Part shown: positions 15,290 to 27,599 of the stretch, piece after piece
Numbering within the stretch: position 1 is the first letter of the stretch
How the letters are laid out: every line of letters begins with the position of its first letter
Source of the DNA: an uncultured Bdellovibrionales bacterium
GTDB lineage: Bacteria > Bdellovibrionota > Bdellovibrionia > Bdellovibrionales > Bdellovibrionaceae
DNA: 64,000 nucleotides
Assembly: GCA_903926205.1 (NCBI GenBank)
Contig: CAIYID010000049.1
Span: 1-64,000 of the forward strand
Direction of reading: 5' to 3'
Program-made: the position numbers and the translations under genes
Notes under the pieces: generated by a model
The model's database searches: none
What the model was told of the DNA's origin: nothing
The model's input: the letters and a program-made list of their open reading frames with translations, nothing else

Positions 15290-16696
15290 TTATTCGTCGT
15301 CGAGCTCTTCGTCATCAATGAGACCCAGATTGTACTTTTCCACCCGATATCTCATGGAACGAAAAGTAATATGCAACAACTTCGCGGCTTTTTTCTTCAC
15401 GCCACCCGCCGTATGAATCGCTTTGACGATTAACTCTTTCTCTATCTGACCGATGATTTTATCAAGCTCAATGCCTTCTGTTCCAATCTCTATCTCTTGG
15501 CTTGATGCTAGTTTGCGTCCTACAGGCGTGTTCACAAAAGGAGGTAAACTCTCTGGCAAAATGGTAGCACCACTCTCTAATGCCACGGTTCTTTCGATGA
15601 TATTTTCCAACTCCCGTACGTTTCCGGGGTACTCGTATTTTTTCATCACTTCCATGGCTTCAAGACTAATACCATTCACATTTTTATTCAGACGTTCATT
15701 GTACTTTTTCAAAAAGTGAGTCGCGAGTAAAGGAATGTCTTCTTTGCGCTCACGCAAGGCTGGCGTACGAATATTAATCACGTTCAACCGATAGTACAAA
15801 TCCTGACGAAAAGTTCCTTGCTTCACCATATCTTCAAGATTGCGATTGGTGGCCGCAATGATACGCACTTCGACTTTGATATCTTCCGTAGCTCCCACTC
15901 GGCGGATCACGCGCTCTTGAATAGCACGAAGAAGTTTCACTTGAATCGTGACAGGCAACTCACCGATCTCATCCAAAAATAAAGATCCGCCATCGGCCAC
16001 TTCAAATAAACCCGGCTTATCAAAAACGGCGCTAGTGAAGGAGCCTTTTTTATGACCAAACATTTCCGATTCCATCAATTGCTCAGGAATAGCACCACAG
16101 TTGATCGTAACAAAGGGACGATCTTTCAGTGGGCCATTGAAGTGAATAGCTTTAGCCACGACCTCTTTACCGGTACCGCTCTCTCCCGTCACCAAAACAT
16201 TGGTAGGAGCTTGGCTCACTCTTTTAATTAAATCAAAAATTCGATGCATGGCTTCGGAGTTACCCACCATATTTTGGAAGGTGTACTCTTTTTGCATTTC
16301 TTTTTTCAAAACACGGTTTTCAACTTCTAAGTTTTTAGAGCGTAGAGCATTCGCTACATTGAGACGAACCTCATCGATTTTGAATGGCTTCGTCAGATAA
16401 TCGTAGGCACCCATTTTCATGGCTTCAACTGCGTTCTCCGCAGTACCAAATGCGGTGATCATCATGAAAACAGTTTCCGGATAATTGTCTTTCACAAATT
16501 TCAACAATTCAATACCCGTCACATGAGGCATTTGTAAATCCGAAATAACCATATCGAAAGTTTTTTTACCTAAAACATCCTTCGCCACAGCACCATCTTC
16601 TGCTGTAGTGATCTCATAGCCTTCTTTTTTCAGCATAATTTCTAGGAATTCGCGAATCGAATCCTCATCATCAACAACTAAAATTCTCGGTTTCAT
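15290..16696 (-). CDS. pilR: Sigma-54-dependent response regulator, PilR-like
   Basis: 468 residues. Receiver (1-120: VVDDE, phospho-acceptor MVISDLQMP, YLTKPF), AAA+ sigma-54 activator domain (about 143-375: Walker A GESGTGKE, Walker B SLFLDEIGE, arginine finger region), and a C-terminal Fis-type helix-turn-helix (KKKAAKLLHITFRSMRYRVEKY). The sigma-54 contact loop reads GSFTSA instead of GAFTGA or GSFTGA. By family and position it activates pilin transcription in response to PilS. It is last in the pilB-to-pilR run, 46 nt after pilS. The pilin gene itself is not in the window. Confidence 0.85.
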   Translation of the reverse strand: MKPRILVVDDEDSIREFLEIMLKKEGYEITTAEDGAVAKDVLGKKTFDMVISDLQMPHVTGIELLKFVKDNYPETVFMMITAFGTAENAVEAMKMGAYDYLTKPFKIDEVRLNVANALRSKNLEVENRVLKKEMQKEYTFQNMVGNSEAMHRIFDLIKRVSQAPTNVLVTGESGTGKEVVAKAIHFNGPLKDRPFVTINCGAIPEQLMESEMFGHKKGSFTSAVFDKPGLFEVADGGSLFLDEIGELPVTIQVKLLRAIQERVIRRVGATEDIKVEVRIIAATNRNLEDMVKQGTFRQDLYYRLNVINIRTPALRERKEDIPLLATHFLKKYNERLNKNVNGISLEAMEVMKKYEYPGNVRELENIIERTVALESGATILPESLPPFVNTPVGRKLASSQEIEIGTEGIELDKIIGQIEKELIVKAIHTAGGVKKKAAKLLHITFRSMRYRVEKYNLGLIDDEELDDE

Positions 16697-16742: not shown

Positions 16743-18362
16743 TCAACTTTTTCTTGAGCCAGTCTTAATCGGAAAGCGAAATATAAATTCGGTCCCTTGA
16801 TTTTTTTTAGAATCGACAGAAATATTTGCTTCGTGAGCTTGGAGAATTTTGAAGGTAATAGCAAGACCTAAGCCTGTACCAGATCGTCCTTTGGTCGTGT
16901 AGAAAGGCTCGAAAAGTCGAGTTTTCGTTTCTTCACTCATACCACTACCATTATCTCTAATACGAACGACCACTTCTAATCCGATAACTTTTGCTGAAAT
17001 TTGCAGTTCAGGATTTTCTGTTGTTGCAAGAGCCTGAAAGGCATTGATAATAACATTTAAAAAGGCCTGCAGAAGTTTGTCTTGGGAGCCACGAATCTCT
17101 GGCAGAATCTCCAGGTCCGTGTGTAAAAGAACATCATTGCGTAAATTTTTATCATTTTTTACAATCTCAAGAACGTTTTTCAAAATAAGATCTAACCGAA
17201 TCGGATCCACAGAAATTTTTTCCGGTTTAGCATAGTCCTTAAATTCCCCAATCAAACGTCCAAGTCGAGCGATCTCCCGGTGTGTGTTATGAATGAGTTT
17301 TTTGTCTGTTTCATCTTCAATTTTAATTTTTGGCTCAAGAAACTGAATATTCGCGCTCACGGCAGCCAATGGATTTCCCAATTCATGAGCTATACCTGAG
17401 GCTAGACCTCCGATAGCAGCCAACTTTTGCTGGTGTAAAATTGTGAGTTCCAATCGACGCACTTCTGTCACATCCTCGAGCATCACCAAAAAATCTGAAC
17501 TCTCGGTTTTTTGAGAGATAACTTGAATTTGCAAAATGAGGTTATCTCCGTCTCGGCGTAATGGAAGTTCCGTTTTAAACGAAGTTGCCGCACCGGTGTG
17601 CGCAGAGGAAAACCATTTTTTAAATTCCATGGCAAAATCAGGCAATAAAAGATGAAGATTTTCCCCTTCCATGGACTCTTTCTTAAAAATTTGCAAAGCC
17701 CCAGGATTTGCTGTCAGCACAATCCCCTCCTGTGTGACGGAAAGTAAGCCAGAAGGAATCGTCTGCACAATGGATTCATTGAGAGCTCGCAGGTCACTCA
17801 AGGAAATTCCCTGATATTCAAGTTGCTCGGCCAACATGCCTGAAATCCAAGCCAGACAAAAGAAAGCCACATTATATAAAATAAGAGTGAAAAAAAATGT
17901 CATCGCCTTCATTTCAGGTCCTAACAACGAAACCGTACTGAAGGATAAAGAACAAATCGCTGCAAGCAAAAGAGCACCACGAGTTTGAAAGATCAAGGCC
18001 ATCAGCAAAATTTCAATCAAGAAAATAAAAAGAAATAATGAAACATTGAGTTCTGATTTGTAAAGTAAGGTGGCTATCAATAAAACATCAAAAAAGAATG
18101 AATAAAAAAGCCAGCGACCATTTTCGAACAGTTTCTCCAGTCGAATAAGACCAATTAAATTGACCAGAATTCCCAGAGCCGAAACACAATAAAATTGCCA
18201 ATAAAAGTCCCAGTTAAAAAATGTCGACTGACTCAAATGCACCAGTAAAGCGAGTCCAAACAAGAGCACAAAAACACCCACGCGTAAGCTCTGAATGATT
18301 AATCTCATCTTATTAAGTGGGCCTTTTGATTTTGTTACTAGCAAATGAGAATCAGAAGTCAT
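16743..18362 (-). CDS. pilS: Membrane sensor histidine kinase, PilS-like
   Basis: About 539 residues. Five or six transmembrane segments (about 25-185), a PAS domain (about 205-320), HisKA with the phospho-acceptor in GIAHELGNPLAAV, and HATPase with NVIINAFQAL, DNGSGM and GRSGTGLGLA. This is the PilS architecture. The ATG at 18362 is 13 nt after the pilC stop and has TAAGGTG upstream; a longer frame into pilC is rejected because it adds residues read from pilC. Placed between pilC and pilR, it is the expected partner kinase of PilR. Confidence 0.85.
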   Translation of the reverse strand: MTSDSHLLVTKSKGPLNKMRLIIQSLRVGVFVLLFGLALLVHLSQSTFFNWDFYWQFYCVSALGILVNLIGLIRLEKLFENGRWLFYSFFFDVLLIATLLYKSELNVSLFLFIFLIEILLMALIFQTRGALLLAAICSLSFSTVSLLGPEMKAMTFFFTLILYNVAFFCLAWISGMLAEQLEYQGISLSDLRALNESIVQTIPSGLLSVTQEGIVLTANPGALQIFKKESMEGENLHLLLPDFAMEFKKWFSSAHTGAATSFKTELPLRRDGDNLILQIQVISQKTESSDFLVMLEDVTEVRRLELTILHQQKLAAIGGLASGIAHELGNPLAAVSANIQFLEPKIKIEDETDKKLIHNTHREIARLGRLIGEFKDYAKPEKISVDPIRLDLILKNVLEIVKNDKNLRNDVLLHTDLEILPEIRGSQDKLLQAFLNVIINAFQALATTENPELQISAKVIGLEVVVRIRDNGSGMSEETKTRLFEPFYTTKGRSGTGLGLAITFKILQAHEANISVDSKKNQGTEFIFRFPIKTGSRKS

Positions 18363-18375
18363 CGTTTCAGACACC

Positions 18376-19596
18376 TTATTGGCTACCCAAAGAGGCCATG
18401 TCGAAAATTGGAAGATACATGGCGAGAACAAGCACGGCAATGACTCCGCCCAAACCCACCATCAATATTGGATCAATCATCGAAGTCATTGCTTTGACTG
18501 CAACCTCTATGTCATCTTCGTAAAAATCTGCAATTTTTCCAAACATTGCATCCAAAGTTCCTGATTTTTCTCCAATAGAAATCATTTGCGACACCATGTC
18601 CGGAATGGCCTTTTCTTTTGATAAAGGAAAGGCCAATGGACGACCTGCCGTCACAAATTCTTTCGAACGTAAAAGTGCTTCTTCAATCACTACATTTCCC
18701 GAAGTGCGAGAAGCAATGTCCAAAGCATCAATGACTCCCACTCCGGATCTTAAGAGAGTTTCTAAGGTTCGCGACATTCGAGCCACTGCGGCCTTTTGAA
18801 CCACATCACCAATCACTGGCATCCCGATTAAAAGTTTGTCCAATTCTTTTTTTCCTTCAGGTGTTTTAATGTAGGTATAAATAAAATAACCACCACTGAA
18901 AATCCCTATTATTAAAATTTGATACTTTGTTACTAAAAAATTACTCAGATTCACAACCATTTGCGTAAGCATCGGTAAGGCTTTGCCACTACTGATATAC
19001 ATCTCTTGGAATTTTGGAATAATGAACACCAACATACCTGTAATCACCAAAATCGCGACGAAAATGATTGCCGCAGGATAAACCATCGCCCCTTTGACTT
19101 GGCCTTTGATTCTTTGTGATTTCTCCATATAAATAGACAATCGATCTAATATTCCATCCAAAATACCAGCTTCCTCGCCAGCACGAACCATATTCACGTA
19201 CAATCGATCAAAAATTCCCGGATAAACCGCCATCGATTCACCCAAACGTTTTCCACCTTCGATCGATTCACGAACTCTACCCGTGACCTCTTTCAGTATG
19301 GGATTCCGGCTACCGTCTTCAAGAATTTTTATCGCTTCCACAATCGGGACACCCGCATTCACAAGTGTTGAAAATTGACGTGTAAAAATTTGCAATTCTT
19401 TTGAACTAATTTTTTTACTCGCGTTGACATTAACAGAGGGTTTCGCTTTTCCAACTTTCCCTATCAGAGCAAGCCGCACGGGGGTCAGGTCCTGGGTTCG
19501 AAGTTTAACGCGTGCTTCGCTTTCATTCGCAGCGTCGATCTGACCCACTTGAACTTTTCCACTCGCATTTTTCGCTTGATAAGCAAATTTTGGCAT
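18376..19596 (-). CDS. pilC: Type IV pilus inner-membrane platform protein PilC
   Basis: 406 residues, normal length. Two T2SF domains: ELQIFTRQFSTLVNAGVPI and a second copy near RMSRTLETLLRSGVGVIDAL, each followed by hydrophobic segments (VYPAAIIFVAILVITGMLVF; GGYFIY; PILMVGLGGVIAVLVLAMYLPIF). PilC couples the cytoplasmic assembly ATPases to pilin addition in the inner membrane. It starts 3 nt after the PilT-like gene and is followed by pilS. Confidence 0.95.
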   Translation of the reverse strand: MPKFAYQAKNASGKVQVGQIDAANESEARVKLRTQDLTPVRLALIGKVGKAKPSVNVNASKKISSKELQIFTRQFSTLVNAGVPIVEAIKILEDGSRNPILKEVTGRVRESIEGGKRLGESMAVYPGIFDRLYVNMVRAGEEAGILDGILDRLSIYMEKSQRIKGQVKGAMVYPAAIIFVAILVITGMLVFIIPKFQEMYISSGKALPMLTQMVVNLSNFLVTKYQILIIGIFSGGYFIYTYIKTPEGKKELDKLLIGMPVIGDVVQKAAVARMSRTLETLLRSGVGVIDALDIASRTSGNVVIEEALLRSKEFVTAGRPLAFPLSKEKAIPDMVSQMISIGEKSGTLDAMFGKIADFYEDDIEVAVKAMTSMIDPILMVGLGGVIAVLVLAMYLPIFDMASLGSQ

Positions 19597-19598
19597 CG

Positions 19599-20642
19599 CT
19601 AAAATCCAACTTTTTCCAACATTTGGTCAAGTTCTTCGGGACGCGGACTTTCTGCAAACCCGGCTTTGACATCAATTTTTCTTTTCATCATTAAGTTCAT
19701 TAAACATTGGTTGAGCGTTCTCATTCCGGCTTTTTCACCAACTGCACTCATTAGATCTTCAACAATTTCCCATTGATTATCGATGACGGCTTTGCGTATA
19801 TCCTTAGTGAACAATAAAAGTTCATAGGCGGCCTGCATGCCTTTCTCTATAGCTGGAACCAGACGCACGTTCAAAACTAACTGAGTCACTTCCGCAAGCC
19901 TTCTTCTCCCGATGTCGGTAGAGGTTTCTAATTTTTCGGAGAGCCTCTCGATTGCCACTTGCACAGTTGCGAAAGGCAATGTCATCAACACTCGCACTCC
20001 CATTTCACCAATATTAATTGCTTGCCTCCAAGCTTGGACTCGATGACTGTCAATCACCACAAAATCAAAGCCACGTAGCAACTGATGAGACATCGCTAAA
20101 CTCTCGATCGGAAATATTTGCCAGAGCCCAGTCACTGAACCCTCAGCATATTCCTCAGGCTGATCTGTAAAAACCGCGATAGATCGTCGTTGTTCTTCAC
20201 TCGCTTCTTTAGCAAAAAGCTGTACAAGAGTGGTCCTCCCTGATCGACGAGGACCTGTAATTATATTTACACCAACTGATTTTTTAAACACTTCTAAAAC
20301 GGCTGGTGGCAAAGCAAAATCGGATAATTGCACGTGAGCGTTCTTCCAAGAAAAATAGACATTGAATCCTTGATCAGATCGCGTGAACACATAATGAAAA
20401 CGTTTTTCTTTAATTTGCAGACTTCCGCTAATCATTCCCTTTTCAAGCAATTCAATTCTTTCCTCATCGCTCAGCAAAGCAAGAGTTTGCTCGCGTACAA
20501 ACGCCGGAGAAAATTCTTCTTCCATTAATGGATGCCAGCCTTTGCGCGTCCGCACCATCGGCCGCTGTGCGCTGATTAAGCGCAGCTCACTCGAATTTGC
20601 CTTCTCTGCGTCCTGCAGAATATCTAGTAAATTGATCATCAT
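19599..20642 (-). CDS. Degenerate PilT-like protein, probably inactive as an ATPase
   Basis: 347 residues, the length of PilT, with its C-terminal pattern (GMRTLNQCLMNLMMKRKID, where PilT has the helix after AIRNLI). The ATPase motifs are broken: Walker A reads GPRRSGRTT (residues 130-138) with Arg for the catalytic Lys; the Asp box reads FTDQPEEY instead of IEDPIEF; the Walker B/GE region is FDFVVIDSHR rather than DVILVGEMRD; and the His box TLHT is TLPF. It overlaps the pilB stop as ATGA and precedes pilC, exactly where retraction ATPases sit. I infer a regulatory or structural subunit that binds PilC or PilB/PilT hexamers rather than a motor. Confidence 0.8.
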   Translation of the reverse strand: MMINLLDILQDAEKANSSELRLISAQRPMVRTRKGWHPLMEEEFSPAFVREQTLALLSDEERIELLEKGMISGSLQIKEKRFHYVFTRSDQGFNVYFSWKNAHVQLSDFALPPAVLEVFKKSVGVNIITGPRRSGRTTLVQLFAKEASEEQRRSIAVFTDQPEEYAEGSVTGLWQIFPIESLAMSHQLLRGFDFVVIDSHRVQAWRQAINIGEMGVRVLMTLPFATVQVAIERLSEKLETSTDIGRRRLAEVTQLVLNVRLVPAIEKGMQAAYELLLFTKDIRKAVIDNQWEIVEDLMSAVGEKAGMRTLNQCLMNLMMKRKIDVKAGFAESPRPEELDQMLEKVGF

Positions 20643-22324
20643 GAATCCTTTACTGAAGCATTAACGACTTCCTCAATTGTTGTTTCTCCACGCTTTAACT
20701 TCAAAAGTGCCGCTCTCCGCAAGGTCCGCATTCCCTCGGCACGGGCCATGTTTCGAATATCTGCAGCACTCGCACCATTTAAAACAAGTTCCTTAATTTT
20801 TTCTGACATTTTCATCACTTCAAAAATTGCGATTCGTCCTTTGATTCCTGTGTTTGAGCAAGCATGACAGCCTCGGCCTTTGAAGAGGCGATACTCTCCT
20901 ACTTCTTTTGGCTCAACTCCGATTTCGATCAAGGCTTTAGGAACGACTTCGACAGGAGCTTTACATTCCTCACAGAGGCGTCCTACCAACCGCTGCGCAA
21001 CGATCAGAGTCAAAGTGCTAGTCACAATATATCCAGCCACCCCCATCTCCATCAAACGAGAAACTGTTTGCGGAGCATCGTTGGTGTGCAAAGTACTCAC
21101 CACCAAGTGACCAGTGGATGCGGCTTTCATCGCAATTTCTGCAGTTTCTAAATCCCGGATCTCCCCCACCATGATAATATCTGGATCCTGACGAAGAAAA
21201 CTGCGAAGTGCAACCGCAAAATTCAGATCAATATCTGGGTTCATTTGGACTTGATTAATTCCCTCAAAGTTATACTCCACCGGATCTTCCGCCGTAGAAA
21301 TATTGACATCTGGCCGGTTCAAATCCACCAGCGCCGAATAAATAGTTGTCGTTTTTCCAGAACCCGTTGGCCCTGTGATCAACACAAGTCCTTGAGGCAT
21401 ATGAATCGCGTCTTTCAATTGGTACAAATCATCAGGTTCCATTCCTAATTTTGTCATGTCTAATTGCAAATTTGATTTATCCAAAAGACGCATAACTACT
21501 TTTTCACCCCAAATGGTGGGAAGCACGGACACCCGAAAATCCATGTCTTTGCCGCCGCGATATTTAATTTTTATACGACCATCTTGAGGGCGGCGTTTCT
21601 CTGCGATATCGAGTTTAGCCATAATTTTAATCCGACTCGCAATGGCAGCGCTGGAAGCGGACGGTTGAGAAGTCGCTTCAAGCATAACGCCATCAATACG
21701 AAAACGTACTCGGAAACGTTTTTCATAAGGCTCAAAGTGAATATCGGAAGCTTTTTTTCGAATCGCATCTGTTAAAATCGCATTCACAAATTTGATGATG
21801 GGACCTTCATCGCCATCAGAATCGGCATCGATTGATTCAACGCTGATTTGAATATCATCGCCGCCATCTTCCTCCGTGTCCTTAATAATCTTTCCGATAT
21901 CGGCGCCAAAATATTTATCAATAGCAGCGGCTATCGCAGTTTCAGTGGCCACCACGGCTTGAATTTTGGAACGAGCAAGAAATCGCAAATCATCTCGAAT
22001 AAATATATTTCCGGGGTCTGAAAAGGCGACCACCAATGTTTGTCCCACTTTTTGTACCGGTAATATCAAATGCTTTTCACATACTTCTCGTGGCACCGAC
22101 TGCGCCACTCCTGGCTGAATCGCAAAATTATTCAGATCAATACTTGGAACTTGATAAAAAGTTTCAAGGGCTTTCAACACTTGAGATTCTTTAACTAAAC
22201 CTTGTTGAATTAGTACTTGAGTGAGTTTATGACCAGAACGTTGAGATTCATCAATGGCTTTGACCATAGCTTCGGGTCTAACCAGTCCTTGTTTTACTAG
22301 AATTTCACCAATTTTCACTGCCAT
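20639..22324 (-). CDS. pilB: Type IV pilus assembly ATPase PilB
   Basis: About 561 residues. N-terminal MshEN/T2SSE-N domain (KIGEILVKQGLV and following), then the secretion ATPase: Asp box TAEDPVEY, Walker A GPTGSGKTTT, Walker B IIMVGEIRDLETAEIAM, His box TLHTNDA, and a tetracysteine zinc site (CEEC and CHAC). All active-site motifs are intact. PilB powers pilus extension. The ATG at 22324 matches the family start; a GTG at 22348 is possible. It follows the AroE-like gene with a short gap and overlaps the PilT-like gene by ATGA. Confidence 0.96.
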   Translation of the reverse strand: MAVKIGEILVKQGLVRPEAMVKAIDESQRSGHKLTQVLIQQGLVKESQVLKALETFYQVPSIDLNNFAIQPGVAQSVPREVCEKHLILPVQKVGQTLVVAFSDPGNIFIRDDLRFLARSKIQAVVATETAIAAAIDKYFGADIGKIIKDTEEDGGDDIQISVESIDADSDGDEGPIIKFVNAILTDAIRKKASDIHFEPYEKRFRVRFRIDGVMLEATSQPSASSAAIASRIKIMAKLDIAEKRRPQDGRIKIKYRGGKDMDFRVSVLPTIWGEKVVMRLLDKSNLQLDMTKLGMEPDDLYQLKDAIHMPQGLVLITGPTGSGKTTTIYSALVDLNRPDVNISTAEDPVEYNFEGINQVQMNPDIDLNFAVALRSFLRQDPDIIMVGEIRDLETAEIAMKAASTGHLVVSTLHTNDAPQTVSRLMEMGVAGYIVTSTLTLIVAQRLVGRLCEECKAPVEVVPKALIEIGVEPKEVGEYRLFKGRGCHACSNTGIKGRIAIFEVMKMSEKIKELVLNGASAADIRNMARAEGMRTLRRAALLKLKRGETTIEEVVNASVKDS

Positions 22325-22340
22325 GAAGGAATTGTAACCT

Positions 22341-23231
22341 TCAATCACTCCCTTTTGTTACTGGACCTTCGGCGAGTTTTTCAACTGAAACACTCTGTTG
22401 AACATATTCAAACCACTTCTGCTCAAACTCTTGCAATGAAATCTTCAGCGGCCCGAGCATTCGACTCAAAATTTTCCAATCAGCTCTTGCTTGCAGAGCG
22501 TGGCCAAATAAGACACGTAAACCAACATGAAGAGCTTCGTCCATCACGGGATTACTCACTTGATCGCTCTGAGTATCCACAACCAGTCCCGCACCAAAAA
22601 TAAAATTTAAGTAAGTAAGATCTTCTTTCAACTCCTGGTGGTCGACGAGGCTCGCCGTATTAATCAAAATCGTGCCATCATTTTTTTGCAGAGTCAGGTC
22701 CATGTTAGGTAAAAAGTTAAATTCAGTATCAAAATAAAGTCGTTTGAAAACATCTGAAAGAGCGTCTGAATTTTCTATTCTCTCTAAAACTAAATTAATT
22801 TTTCGATAACCCAATTGGACTAAAACGGACATTCCAATTCGCATGAACGCGCCCTCACCAGTAATATAAGCTGAGGCCGAAGTATCTAAATTGTCTGCAG
22901 CCGCGACAATGCTCTCGTGCAAGATTTCACGATAAAAACATTCAGACCACCAATTTCCCTTCTTATCTTTAAACACACTATCTAAGCATTGAATTTCTGT
23001 TATTCTTCGAGGAACACCATTAATCAATTGTAAAATATTTGATGAATTCGCTCGATCCACAATAATCCCGTCGGAAAATTTTAAAATTTCTTTCCACTGT
23101 GGGCGTAAGGTTTCCAAATTCAAATCAACATTGATCAGTTCCGCCTCGGCAAATTCTGGAACGGTTTGACTCCAAAATTTTTGTGGCAAATCATCTGGTT
23201 TTGCGGCGATCAAATGAATTCTTTTTTTCAT
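22341..23231 (-). CDS. AroE-fold (shikimate dehydrogenase-like) protein lacking catalytic residues
   Basis: 296 residues, not assigned to a named family. The middle reads like the Rossmann half of shikimate dehydrogenase: SAYITGEGAFMRIGMSVL in place of the GAGGA nucleotide loop, a strand-helix KINLVLERIENSDALSDVF, ILINTASL like the INATP strand, and an end MDEALHVGLRVLFGHALQ resembling the terminal helix GLGMLVxQA. The catalytic Lys and the NTDG Asp of AroE are not found, and the glycine loop is altered. I infer a cofactor-binding relic or pseudoenzyme. It overlaps ribF by ATGA and precedes pilB, so it is co-expressed with both. Confidence 0.5.
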   Translation of the reverse strand: MKKRIHLIAAKPDDLPQKFWSQTVPEFAEAELINVDLNLETLRPQWKEILKFSDGIIVDRANSSNILQLINGVPRRITEIQCLDSVFKDKKGNWWSECFYREILHESIVAAADNLDTSASAYITGEGAFMRIGMSVLVQLGYRKINLVLERIENSDALSDVFKRLYFDTEFNFLPNMDLTLQKNDGTILINTASLVDHQELKEDLTYLNFIFGAGLVVDTQSDQVSNPVMDEALHVGLRVLFGHALQARADWKILSRMLGPLKISLQEFEQKWFEYVQQSVSVEKLAEGPVTKGSD

Positions 23232-24246: not shown

Positions 24247-26148
24247 ATGATCGTCAACAATCAACCAACTGACTCCATTTTTTCGCGATTTCTGAGTCAC
24301 GGCTTTCGCTTATTGAGCATTGGTTTTAGACGCCTGGCTCGTCGACGTGGTTTTATTTGGCGAGGTTTCCTCAGCTTCTCAATTGGATCTCTGATGTTCT
24401 TCAGTGACGAAGTCGGTTCTTTTGACACTCGTTTTCAAGTCCGTGGAAATCAAAAAAATTCCGAACAAATTGTCATTCTCAATATCTTTCGTTCGGATGT
24501 TGCGGGCTCCATTAATATGAGAGGCCTGCGCGCCCGTCATGAAATTGGGGATGTCACGGACACTTTCTATTGGAATCGCGAGCTCTGGACTGATCTTCTA
24601 AAAAAAGTCTTAGCCGCTAATCCTCGAAAAATTGGTGTGACACTATTTTTTCCAGATTCCGTGGTTTCAAAAAAAATAAAGGCAGAAGACTTTCCTCTGT
24701 TTTATGATTCTAAAATCACTTGGGCGGCGCTCACCGGCCCTAATGAACGACCAGAATATCCGGCTTTTGCAAAATCAGATCACAGCAATGTGGGCTCGAT
24801 CGAGCTTTTAAGAGACCAAGACGGCGTGATCCGTCGATTCTCCCAGCCCACGGGCGAGATCGAACCGATGGTGCAAATTCTTTCTGAAAACACGAGTCCA
24901 CTTTCCCGTGGGCTTTCACTTATCAATTACCGTGGTGATAACACGGTCTTCACAGAGATGAGCGTCAACGAACTTTTAAGTGACGATTTCCCAATCAGTT
25001 CCTTGAAAGATAAAATTATACTTATCGGCGGAGAGCAACTGAGCTCGAGCCAATATATGACACCGCTCGGTTCCGGCAGTCGACAATCCGTTCTAGCACA
25101 AATGACAAATCATTTACTTGAACACCGCACTATCCATCGTGCCGCCTCCATTGTTTATCTTTCTCTACTCTTGATTTTGATGTCGATCACTGCTTTTGTC
25201 ATGGCCCAATATCCACAAACTGTGGCCCTTTTCTTCATTCTTTGGATTGCGACAGTTTGGTCTGCGCTCTCCGTTTGGGTTTTCGATAGTTTTTGTTTTT
25301 GGCTTCCGATCAATTCCGCTTTAGGTACTGTTTTTTCTTGTTATCTGATTTTCTTAGGCTATCAGGCCAACTACATAGAACGAAAACACTTTCGTCTCCA
25401 ACAACAACAAAAATATTTACAGGAATTAGAACAACTAAAAAATAATTTTGTTTCTTTAATCAGTCATGACTTGAAAACTCCCATCGCAAAAATTCAAGCC
25501 ATTCTTGATCGTTTGGTTCTTAAAAAATTAGACTCAGAAATCCAAAGTGATTTACAAACGCTCAGACAAAGTAATGAAGAACTCAATCGCTACATTCAAT
25601 CCGTACTAAGAATGTTGCGGGTTGAATCTCGTGACTTTCGCTTAAATATCGAAGTCGGAGACGTCAATGAACTTATTAATGATGCCGTGATTCAATTGGC
25701 CCCCTTGGCCACGGAAAAAGGCATTCGAATAGAAACAGAATTAGAGCCAATGTTTTCTTCCGAGTTCGATCAAACCCTGATTCGGGAAGTGATCGTTAAT
25801 CTTTTAGAAAATGCGATAAAGTACACACCCGTGGACGGAAAAGTTATTTTAAAATCATCTGAAAAAAACGGTTTTGTCGAAGTGGATGTGATTGATACAG
25901 GCGAAGGAATTCCTGAAGAAGAAATGCCGCAGATCTTCGGAAAATTCGTTCGAGGCAAAGATCAAGACCTGCGCACAAAAGGCACAGGTTTGGGCTTGTA
26001 TCTTGTTAAATTTTTTATCGAGCTGCATGGTGGGCAAATTCACCTAGAGAGCAGAATCGGTTTAGGAACAAAAGCTTGCTTCACGCTCCCCGTAGAGCAA
26101 GAAAAAAATAAAAGTGGAACTCTTGAGTTAGGAAAGGTGAAGGCATGA
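24247..26148 (+). CDS. CHASE2-domain sensor histidine kinase
   Basis: 633 residues. An N-terminal basic segment and one membrane span lead to a periplasmic CHASE2 domain (about 55-290: FFSDEVGSFDTRFQVRG, IGVTLFFPD, then IILIGG), three transmembrane segments (about 298-375), a coiled coil, HisKA (SLISHDLKTPIAKI, His about 408) and HATPase (NLLENAIKYT, DTGEGI, KGTGLGLYL). Such kinases sense an unknown extracytoplasmic signal. Its stop overlaps the start of the sigma-54 activator (ATGA), identifying that protein as its cognate regulator. Confidence 0.93.
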   Translation: MIVNNQPTDSIFSRFLSHGFRLLSIGFRRLARRRGFIWRGFLSFSIGSLMFFSDEVGSFDTRFQVRGNQKNSEQIVILNIFRSDVAGSINMRGLRARHEIGDVTDTFYWNRELWTDLLKKVLAANPRKIGVTLFFPDSVVSKKIKAEDFPLFYDSKITWAALTGPNERPEYPAFAKSDHSNVGSIELLRDQDGVIRRFSQPTGEIEPMVQILSENTSPLSRGLSLINYRGDNTVFTEMSVNELLSDDFPISSLKDKIILIGGEQLSSSQYMTPLGSGSRQSVLAQMTNHLLEHRTIHRAASIVYLSLLLILMSITAFVMAQYPQTVALFFILWIATVWSALSVWVFDSFCFWLPINSALGTVFSCYLIFLGYQANYIERKHFRLQQQQKYLQELEQLKNNFVSLISHDLKTPIAKIQAILDRLVLKKLDSEIQSDLQTLRQSNEELNRYIQSVLRMLRVESRDFRLNIEVGDVNELINDAVIQLAPLATEKGIRIETELEPMFSSEFDQTLIREVIVNLLENAIKYTPVDGKVILKSSEKNGFVEVDVIDTGEGIPEEEMPQIFGKFVRGKDQDLRTKGTGLGLYLVKFFIELHGGQIHLESRIGLGTKACFTLPVEQEKNKSGTLELGKVKA

Positions 26149-27599
26149 AACCCTCTTTGAAAGTATTGATCGTCGACGATGAGGCGGAGTTGCGAAAAAG
26201 CCTTGCAAGTATTCTTACCAGTTCAATAACAGATTTAGATTTTGAAATCGAAGAAGCCAGTAACGGCAAAGAGGCCGTCACTAAAATCATCGCCGGCGAT
26301 CATGACCTCGTTTTGATGGATGTACGCATGCCTGAAATGAACGGGCTTGAAGCTTTAGCAAAAATCAAAGCTCATACTCCTTCTACTTTTGTGGTTATCG
26401 TGACTGCCCATAGTAATTTGCAAGACGCCGTTGTCGCCATCAAAGAAGGCGCCTACGATTATGTGGAAAAACCTGTGCAAGCACAAAGATTGACAGAAAT
26501 CGTTCGCAAAAGTCTTGAAGCGAAAGAAATGGTCTCAAGTTTGGCACTTTCCAATCCTATTTTTGATGATGATGTTGATAGTGAGTTTGTCGGCCGCTCC
26601 CAAAAAATGAGGGAAGTTTTTGACCTTATTTATCGACTTTGCAAAGTCGACACGACGGTTCTTGTTCGTGGAGAGAACGGCACCGGAAAAGAACTAGTTG
26701 CGCGGGCCATTCATTTTAACTCGCCCAGAAAATCAGGCTCCTTTGTCGCGATTAATTGTGGCGCCATTCCTGATCAGCTGATGGAGAGCGAACTTTTTGG
26801 ACACGAAAAAGGTTCCTTCACCGGAGCTATCGATCGAAAAATTGGTAAATTTCAACTAGCCATCAATGGCACTTTATTTTTGGATGAAATCGGAGAGCTC
26901 AAACCAGACATGCAGGTCAAACTCTTACGCGTCCTTCAAGAGAAAAAATTTATGCCCGTTGGCGGAAATCGCGAAGTAAAAACCAATGCTCGAATTATCG
27001 CTGCGACCAATAGAAATCTAGAAAAAATGATCGAAGATTTACAATTTCGAGAAGATCTTTTTTATCGCTTAAATGTTATGCCAATTTTTCTTCCTCCCTT
27101 ACGCGAACGCTCAGATGATATTCCTGCGTTAGTTCAAACTTTTATCAAAAAATTTGCCAAAGCCATGAACTCTAAAATATCTGGCATCGCACCTGAGGCT
27201 CTGCAGATTTTAAAAAATTATCGCTGGCCAGGAAATATACGAGAATTGGAAAACTCCATCGAACGCGCCTTTATTTTAGAAACTTCTCAAAATATTAGTG
27301 CGGAAAGCTTGCCAGAAGTGATTCGGAAAAGCGCAACAGAATCTGTTCGTGGTGCGACAATGGCGCCTTCTGCTATCGATCAAAAATCTGGATCGACGAA
27401 TCAAAATACGACACAAAAAGGCCTAGATTATGAATCTTTTAAAGAGCAGGCCGAGCGAGATTTCGTTATCAGCGCGCTTAAAGCCAATAAAGGACGCATC
27501 AACCAAACAGTGGCCCGTGCAAATATTCCAAAAAACACTTTGTTGCGTAAAATTAAAAAATACTCAATCAACGTGAAGGATTATACAGATTCGGATTGA
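26145..27599 (+). CDS. NtrC-family sigma-54-dependent response regulator
   Basis: 484 residues: receiver (1-125; VDDE, VLMDVRMPEMNG, YVEKPV), AAA+ activator (about 150-385; Walker A GENGTGKE, contact loop GSFTGA, Walker B TLFLDEIGE), and a C-terminal Fis-type helix-turn-helix (GRINQTVARANIPKNTLLRKI). The sigma-54 contact loop is of a normal form, unlike the PilR-like protein here. Partner of the CHASE2 kinase. Target genes are unknown. Its 3' end overlaps the convergent heptosyltransferase gene by 32 nt. Confidence 0.93.
   Translation: MKPSLKVLIVDDEAELRKSLASILTSSITDLDFEIEEASNGKEAVTKIIAGDHDLVLMDVRMPEMNGLEALAKIKAHTPSTFVVIVTAHSNLQDAVVAIKEGAYDYVEKPVQAQRLTEIVRKSLEAKEMVSSLALSNPIFDDDVDSEFVGRSQKMREVFDLIYRLCKVDTTVLVRGENGTGKELVARAIHFNSPRKSGSFVAINCGAIPDQLMESELFGHEKGSFTGAIDRKIGKFQLAINGTLFLDEIGELKPDMQVKLLRVLQEKKFMPVGGNREVKTNARIIAATNRNLEKMIEDLQFREDLFYRLNVMPIFLPPLRERSDDIPALVQTFIKKFAKAMNSKISGIAPEALQILKNYRWPGNIRELENSIERAFILETSQNISAESLPEVIRKSATESVRGATMAPSAIDQKSGSTNQNTTQKGLDYESFKEQAERDFVISALKANKGRINQTVARANIPKNTLLRKIKKYSINVKDYTDSD

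Follow-up and report, generated by a model that had tools for sequence, protein, structure and literature searches.

Between the pilB and pilC genes of an uncultured member of the Bdellovibrionaceae lies a gene, pilT1, whose product has the fold and descent of a PilT and, judged by its motifs, would be catalytically dead. It was found in a window of 64,000 nucleotides (contig CAIYID010000049.1 of assembly GCA_903926205.1) and is, by position and by a conserved tail, the orthologue of Bdellovibrio bacteriovorus PilT1. What is new here is the pattern of motif loss across the family, the evidence for at least four losses within the order, the strength of selection on the gene and the conservation of its C-terminus.

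The pilT1 gene and its neighbours

In the window the gene order is pilB-pilT1-pilC, followed by pilS-like and pilR-like genes (Table 1). The preliminary description had located pilT1 correctly, without giving its strand, and had described it as full length, in frame and coupled to pilB by ATGA. The 347-codon ORF agrees with this in each respect, the pilT1 ATG (20642-20640) overlapping the pilB TGA (20641-20639). A frameshifted gene or pseudogene is rejected on the full-length frame together with the purifying selection described below.

Table 1. Positions of pilT1, its motifs and neighbouring genes in the window
Feature	Positions	Strand	Remarks
pilR-like sigma-54 response regulator	15290..16696	minus	domains read from translation
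pilS-like sensor kinase	16743..18440	minus	next in cluster; translation read for domains; true start probably further in
pilC, platform protein	18376..19596	minus	start 2 nt past pilT1 stop
pilT1, PilT-fold protein without catalytic motifs	19599..20642	minus	347 aa
C-terminal helices, residues 301-347 (GMRTLNQ...KRKID...F..SP.PEELD..L.KVG)	19602..19742	minus	best-conserved family region; proposed docking part
degraded AIRNLIRE motif, residues 281-288, DIRKAVID	19779..19802	minus	
degenerate His box, residues 215-226, GVRVLMTLPFAT	19965..20000	minus	both His lost
degenerate Walker B, residues 193-201, DFVVIDSHR	20040..20066	minus	without catalytic Glu
degenerate Asp box, residues 159-165, TDQPEEY	20148..20168	minus	
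degenerate Walker A, residues 130-138, GPRRSGRTT	20229..20255	minus	Lys to Arg
pilB, intact extension ATPase (GPTGSGKTT)	20639..22348	minus	ATGA overlap with pilT1
296-aa ORF	22341..23231	minus	between ribF and pilB
sensor histidine kinase and sigma-54 response regulator	24247..27599	plus	divergent from ribF

The 296-aa ORF between ribF and pilB has no match in Pfam or the PDB and only a weak match to a shikimate dehydrogenase profile (20 bits). It holds the same position in genomes with canonical and with dead PilT, and some copies retain an AroE-like Rossmann motif (GAGAAAR, NTTPMG). It has the appearance of an ancient AroE-type pseudoenzyme next to that of PilT type. The kinase that diverges from ribF is a membrane protein (CHASE2-like by eye), and a similar sensor occupies the equivalent place at loci L147-L149. 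Elsewhere in the window's genome (G000:C78; L003) there is a second pair of GspE-like and PilC-like genes, adjacent to each other with no PilT between them, which is probably a type II secretion locus.

A PilT fold without catalytic motifs

The protein is assigned to PilT, by fold and by ancestry, because matches to the family profile, to PDB chains and to a structural model all lead to the same identification. The match to the TIGR01420 PilT/PilU profile is full length and scores 87 bits, below the curated cut-off of 319.1, and PDB PilT chains match residues 2-343 (E about 1e-18). A ColabFold (AF2) model computed with 13 aligned relatives (mean pLDDT 84, pTM 0.70) contains the full PilT fold, that is, an N-terminal PAS-like domain, a RecA core and C-terminal helices, and finds its best PDB match in Geobacter PilT4 chains (TM-score 0.72-0.76). 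The agreement of profile, PDB and fold rejects a chance likeness. Geobacter PilT4 (PDB 6ojx) and the canonical operon PilT of the order have the same fold and the same C-terminal tail (LNQ...SP.PDEL..L). However, the canonical operon PilT, encoded at the same locus, keeps all five catalytic residues, whereas window PilT1 has none of them.

The preliminary description had stated that all four PilT motifs are altered, with Arg in Walker A, no Glu in Walker B and broken Asp and His boxes, and the alignment bears this out. In Walker A (ITGPRRSGRTT) the Lys is replaced by Arg at residue 136, giving GPRRSGRT in place of the GxxxxGK[S/T] expected under TIGR01420. The Asp box reads VFTDQPEEY against the canonical TxEDPIEY, Walker B reads FVVIDSHR against LLVGELRD, with Ser for the catalytic Glu, and the His box reads GVRVLMTLPFAT against GHLVFATLHTNS. 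None of the Walker B Glu, the Asp box and the His box that characterise PilT and PilU is present in window PilT1. To these four the degraded AIRNLIRE motif (DIRKAVID) adds a fifth. On these substitutions window PilT1 is predicted to be catalytically dead.

PilU resembles window PilT1 in being an accessory PilT paralogue with a role other than simple retraction, but differs in having working Walker motifs and in forming a group of its own. The operon PilT, PilT2 and PilU fall into separate groups in a FastTree phylogeny, and identity with PilU is rejected since window PilT1 lies outside the PilU group and has lost the Walker motifs. The FastTree trees (PilT/PilT2/PilU and PilC) are without bootstrap and long branches meet in the PilT tree; they are used here only for groupings of the canonical clades and for the nesting of G117 and G028.

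Relation to the PilT1 of Bdellovibrio bacteriovorus

A non-catalytic PilT, put forward as a distinct component of the machine in the preliminary description, is not new, because its B. bacteriovorus counterpart was described with mutants in 2014 and a regulatory or stabilising role proposed for it (PMC4237445). Chanyi and Koval (2014; PMC4237445) reported that pilT1 (Bd1510) lies between pilB and pilC, that Walker A is absent and the other functional motifs of PilT are missing, and that a separate, intact pilT2 (Bd3852) is present. The window shares with this system the locus pilB-pilT1-pilC-pilS-pilR, the lack of a functional Walker A and of the other motifs, and the separate PilT2. Bd1510 comes from another genus than the window and is likened to it by position and published description (PMC4237445); genus g7 of our sample is, by inference, probably Bdellovibrio. 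The two accounts diverge over Walker B, which is kept in Bd1510 according to the 2014 paper, whereas its Glu is missing from nearly all family members in our alignment. A literature search for PilT as a 'pseudo-ATPase' found no paper.

Both genes were deleted in that work (PMC4237445). Loss of pilT1 was tolerated during invasion, and its effects on predation were non-significant according to the authors. The proportion of biofilm remaining was 35.4% for the wild type, 27.9% for the pilT1 mutant, 92.5% for the pilT2 mutant and 50.2% for the double mutant (PMC4237445). Predation on biofilm was thus retained without pilT1 and lost without pilT2, with the double mutant in between. A PilU-like role in regulation or pilus stability, and regulation of proteases, were suggested for PilT1 (PMC4237445). 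A later transposon study found Bd3852 to be required for attachment (PMC6561027).

Counts of piliated cells bear on whether PilT1 could be a structural or assembly factor, one that stabilises the pilus base or aids the assembly of PilB and PilC and leaves retraction untouched. Fewer pilT1-mutant cells were piliated under the electron microscope (8.2 vs 22.3%), a difference that the authors explained by shearing (PMC4237445), and the coupling of pilT1 to pilB and pilC is also in keeping with such a factor. However, immunofluorescence gave more piliated mutant cells rather than fewer (33.4 vs about 27%; PMC4237445), and a purely structural factor does not predict the relief of the pilT2 defect seen in the double mutant. 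We consider this explanation unlikely.

Loss of catalytic residues in the family and the order

The family sample comprised 66 genomes, from which 61 operon copies were aligned; two copies (G001, G077) are incomplete because their contigs end within them. The named relatives are filed under Bdellovibrionaceae and Bdellovibrionales. Five key residues were scored: the Walker A Lys, the Asp-box Glu, the Walker B Glu and the two His. All five are present in each of the 13 canonical sequences of the order and in 0 of the 61 family orthologues, 36 of which keep none, 22 one and three two. Nearly all family members have lost the Walker B Glu and the His box, while the residue most often retained is the Walker A Lys (24/61). 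The preliminary description had proposed looking for orthologues at the same position with the same residues lost. Dead motifs at that position extend throughout the family, but loss of the same residues everywhere is rejected by the survival of this Lys. Loss of hydrolysis would thus be uniform and loss of nucleotide binding perhaps not, and some nucleotide binding may persist in the copies concerned.

This retention, and that of most of the loop Gly residues, would suit a signalling protein that senses ATP or another ligand, or that links the state of the pilus to PilS-PilR or to enzyme secretion. The position of pilS and pilR next in the cluster and the protease regulation suggested for B. 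bacteriovorus (PMC4237445) point the same way. Window PilT1 itself, however, is without the Walker A Lys, and we give a signalling role the least credence of the explanations considered here.

Outside the family, in a wider sample of the order taken together with the first set, 64 operon PilTs have a readable catalytic core, 59 of them canonical and five dead (G027, G028, G094, G110, G117). Orthologues with intact Walker motifs had been named in the preliminary description as evidence that would count against it; copies with every residue canonical occur only outside the family, as the ancestral state (59/64). In the PilB tree the family is monophyletic (100/99), and the dead G028 groups with the canonical G026 and G032. 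In the PilC tree (FastTree) G117 is found with the canonical G122, G028 again with the canonical G026, and G027 with G110. By these placements the catalytic motifs were lost at least four times independently, on the family stem, in G028, in G117 and in the group of G027 and G110.

The gene has also been reduced or removed. In genus g5 (G005, G023; L089, L090) pilB abuts pilC and pilT1 is wholly deleted, and in genera g2, g6 and g10 PilT1 is only 209-261 aa long, the N-terminal domain being missing. Because of this deletion and of the domain loss in several genera, pilT1 is not indispensable. The proposal of a distinct component of the pilus machine is accordingly weakened, one genus having dispensed with the gene and others retaining only a truncated form.

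Selection on pilT1

In genus g7 (24 species used) pilT1 has a dN/dS of 0.023 (bootstrap 0.015-0.032; four independent close pairs), compared with 0.010 for PilB and 0.011 for PilC; over seven pairs the ratio is 0.035 and is roughly equal across the N-terminal, core and C-terminal parts. For the window's genus pN/pS is given instead of dN/dS because synonymous sites are saturated, and it stands at 0.30 (0.24-0.37), with one partial copy of 245 codons. The preliminary description had called the gene probably under selection and had proposed ratio tests for neutral decay. Both values uphold it: neutral decay is refuted for g7, the best-sampled genus, and is unlikely in the window's genus.

Across the family PilT1 changes fast, its branches being several times longer than those of PilT2 from the same genomes. 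Mean entropy is 1.48 bits over residues 301-347 and 2.3-2.8 bits elsewhere; canonical PilTs have 1.21 bits over the same C-terminal stretch and 0.75-0.94 in the core. To judge from these profiles, family-wide selection holds the C-terminus (the last 47 residues) and not the engine. Long branches, truncation in g2, g6 and g10 and deletion in g5 could mark a decaying relic, a functionless PilT1 that is on its way out by motif loss, domain loss and deletion. Set against this are the dN/dS and pN/pS values above, the open frames of those copies that lie wholly within their contigs, and the conservation of the C-terminus throughout the family. A relic is therefore a very unlikely explanation of PilT1, though a possible one for the truncated lineages g2, g6 and g10.

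PilT2, PilU and a possible need for a partner

A separate intact PilT, for which the preliminary description had proposed a search, is present in the window's genome, where a single full-scoring PilT with intact motifs is encoded elsewhere (G000:C31, 474 bits); in the profile search no PilU-type protein of that genome scored above the cut-off. PilT2-type matches were found in 65 of the 66 family genomes, the exception (G055) being an incomplete draft (88% complete), and the motifs are intact in all nine in-family PilT2 sequences that were read. PilT2 is a second retraction ATPase and is older than the window's family. In each of the five genomes with dead PilT outside the family exactly one PilT exceeds the cut-off, and the profile search found no PilU-type match that does so. 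A further PilU-scoring match was obtained by the same search in eight of ten canonical-PilT genomes, and in six genomes the tree places such a match in the PilU group. In the window's genome and these five, a dead operon PilT coincides with the lack of a PilU-type match over the cut-off, an observation drawn from few lineages.

In Vibrio cholerae, PilT with mutated Walker motifs still binds PilU and supports PilU-driven retraction (PMC6821130, PMC6762196). By this precedent PilT1 might be an adaptor, a dead PilT that PilT2 requires much as PilU requires PilT even when the latter is ATPase-mutated, and the presence of an active PilT-type ATPase in every examined genome with a dead operon PilT, G055 excepted, is compatible with such a dependence. 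However, deletion of pilT1 in B. bacteriovorus does not reproduce the pilT2 defect and alleviates it in part (PMC4237445), PilT2 occurs without PilT1 in genus g5, and PilT2 is not PilU, forming a group of its own in the tree. An adaptor of this kind is improbable.

A possible role at the pilus motor

The reading that we favour, tentatively and at somewhat less than even chances, is drawn from the fold, the pattern of constraint and the published mutants: PilT1 would modulate the pilus motor without catalysis of its own, acting at PilC or at the PilB or PilT2 ring. It descends from the ordinary PilT encoded between pilB and pilC in the order. By its sequence, the operon copy lost ATP hydrolysis on the family stem, while in most genera selection preserved a PilT-like protein of full length. 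Such a protein would no longer pull. It would instead occupy the motor site at PilC, or touch the PilB or PilT2 ring, making contact through its conserved C-terminal helices, and would restrain or stabilise the pilus in opposition to PilT2. Restraint is proposed because the pilT2 defect is milder when pilT1 is deleted as well (PMC4237445), whereas an adaptor for PilT2 would lead one to expect the reverse.

That a dead PilT may act at all is suggested by the V. cholerae Walker mutant, which likewise lacks ATPase activity and functions through a partner ATPase (PMC6821130, PMC6762196). The likeness has its limits, since that protein is a laboratory mutant changed at one or two residues, whereas window PilT1 has lost all of its motifs naturally. 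In Pseudomonas, the R123D substitution in PilT indicates that PilC binding depends on the conformation of the ring (PMC6858323), and by analogy a dead PilT1 may fail to reach the conformation that binds PilC. The modulator reading is also made less secure by genus g5, which lives without the gene, by the lineages that live without the N-terminal domain, and by the modest size of the mutant effects. A more ambitious proposal, which we think has perhaps one chance in five, is that in Bdellovibrio-like predators the PilT of the operon became a non-catalytic subunit dedicated to the motor, which would sit on PilC as a ring or cap and gate the exchange between PilB and PilT2, and that this arose at least four times, each time in genomes with PilT2 kept and no PilU-type ATPase found.

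The laboratory mutant, a dead PilT that still lets PilU retract pili, implies that PilT has a role beyond that of an ATPase. A PilT without its engine, held through most of the family and remade several times, would be evolution's version of that experiment. PilT1 may thus offer a natural separation of the pulling by PilT from its mere presence, in predators that need pili for attack.
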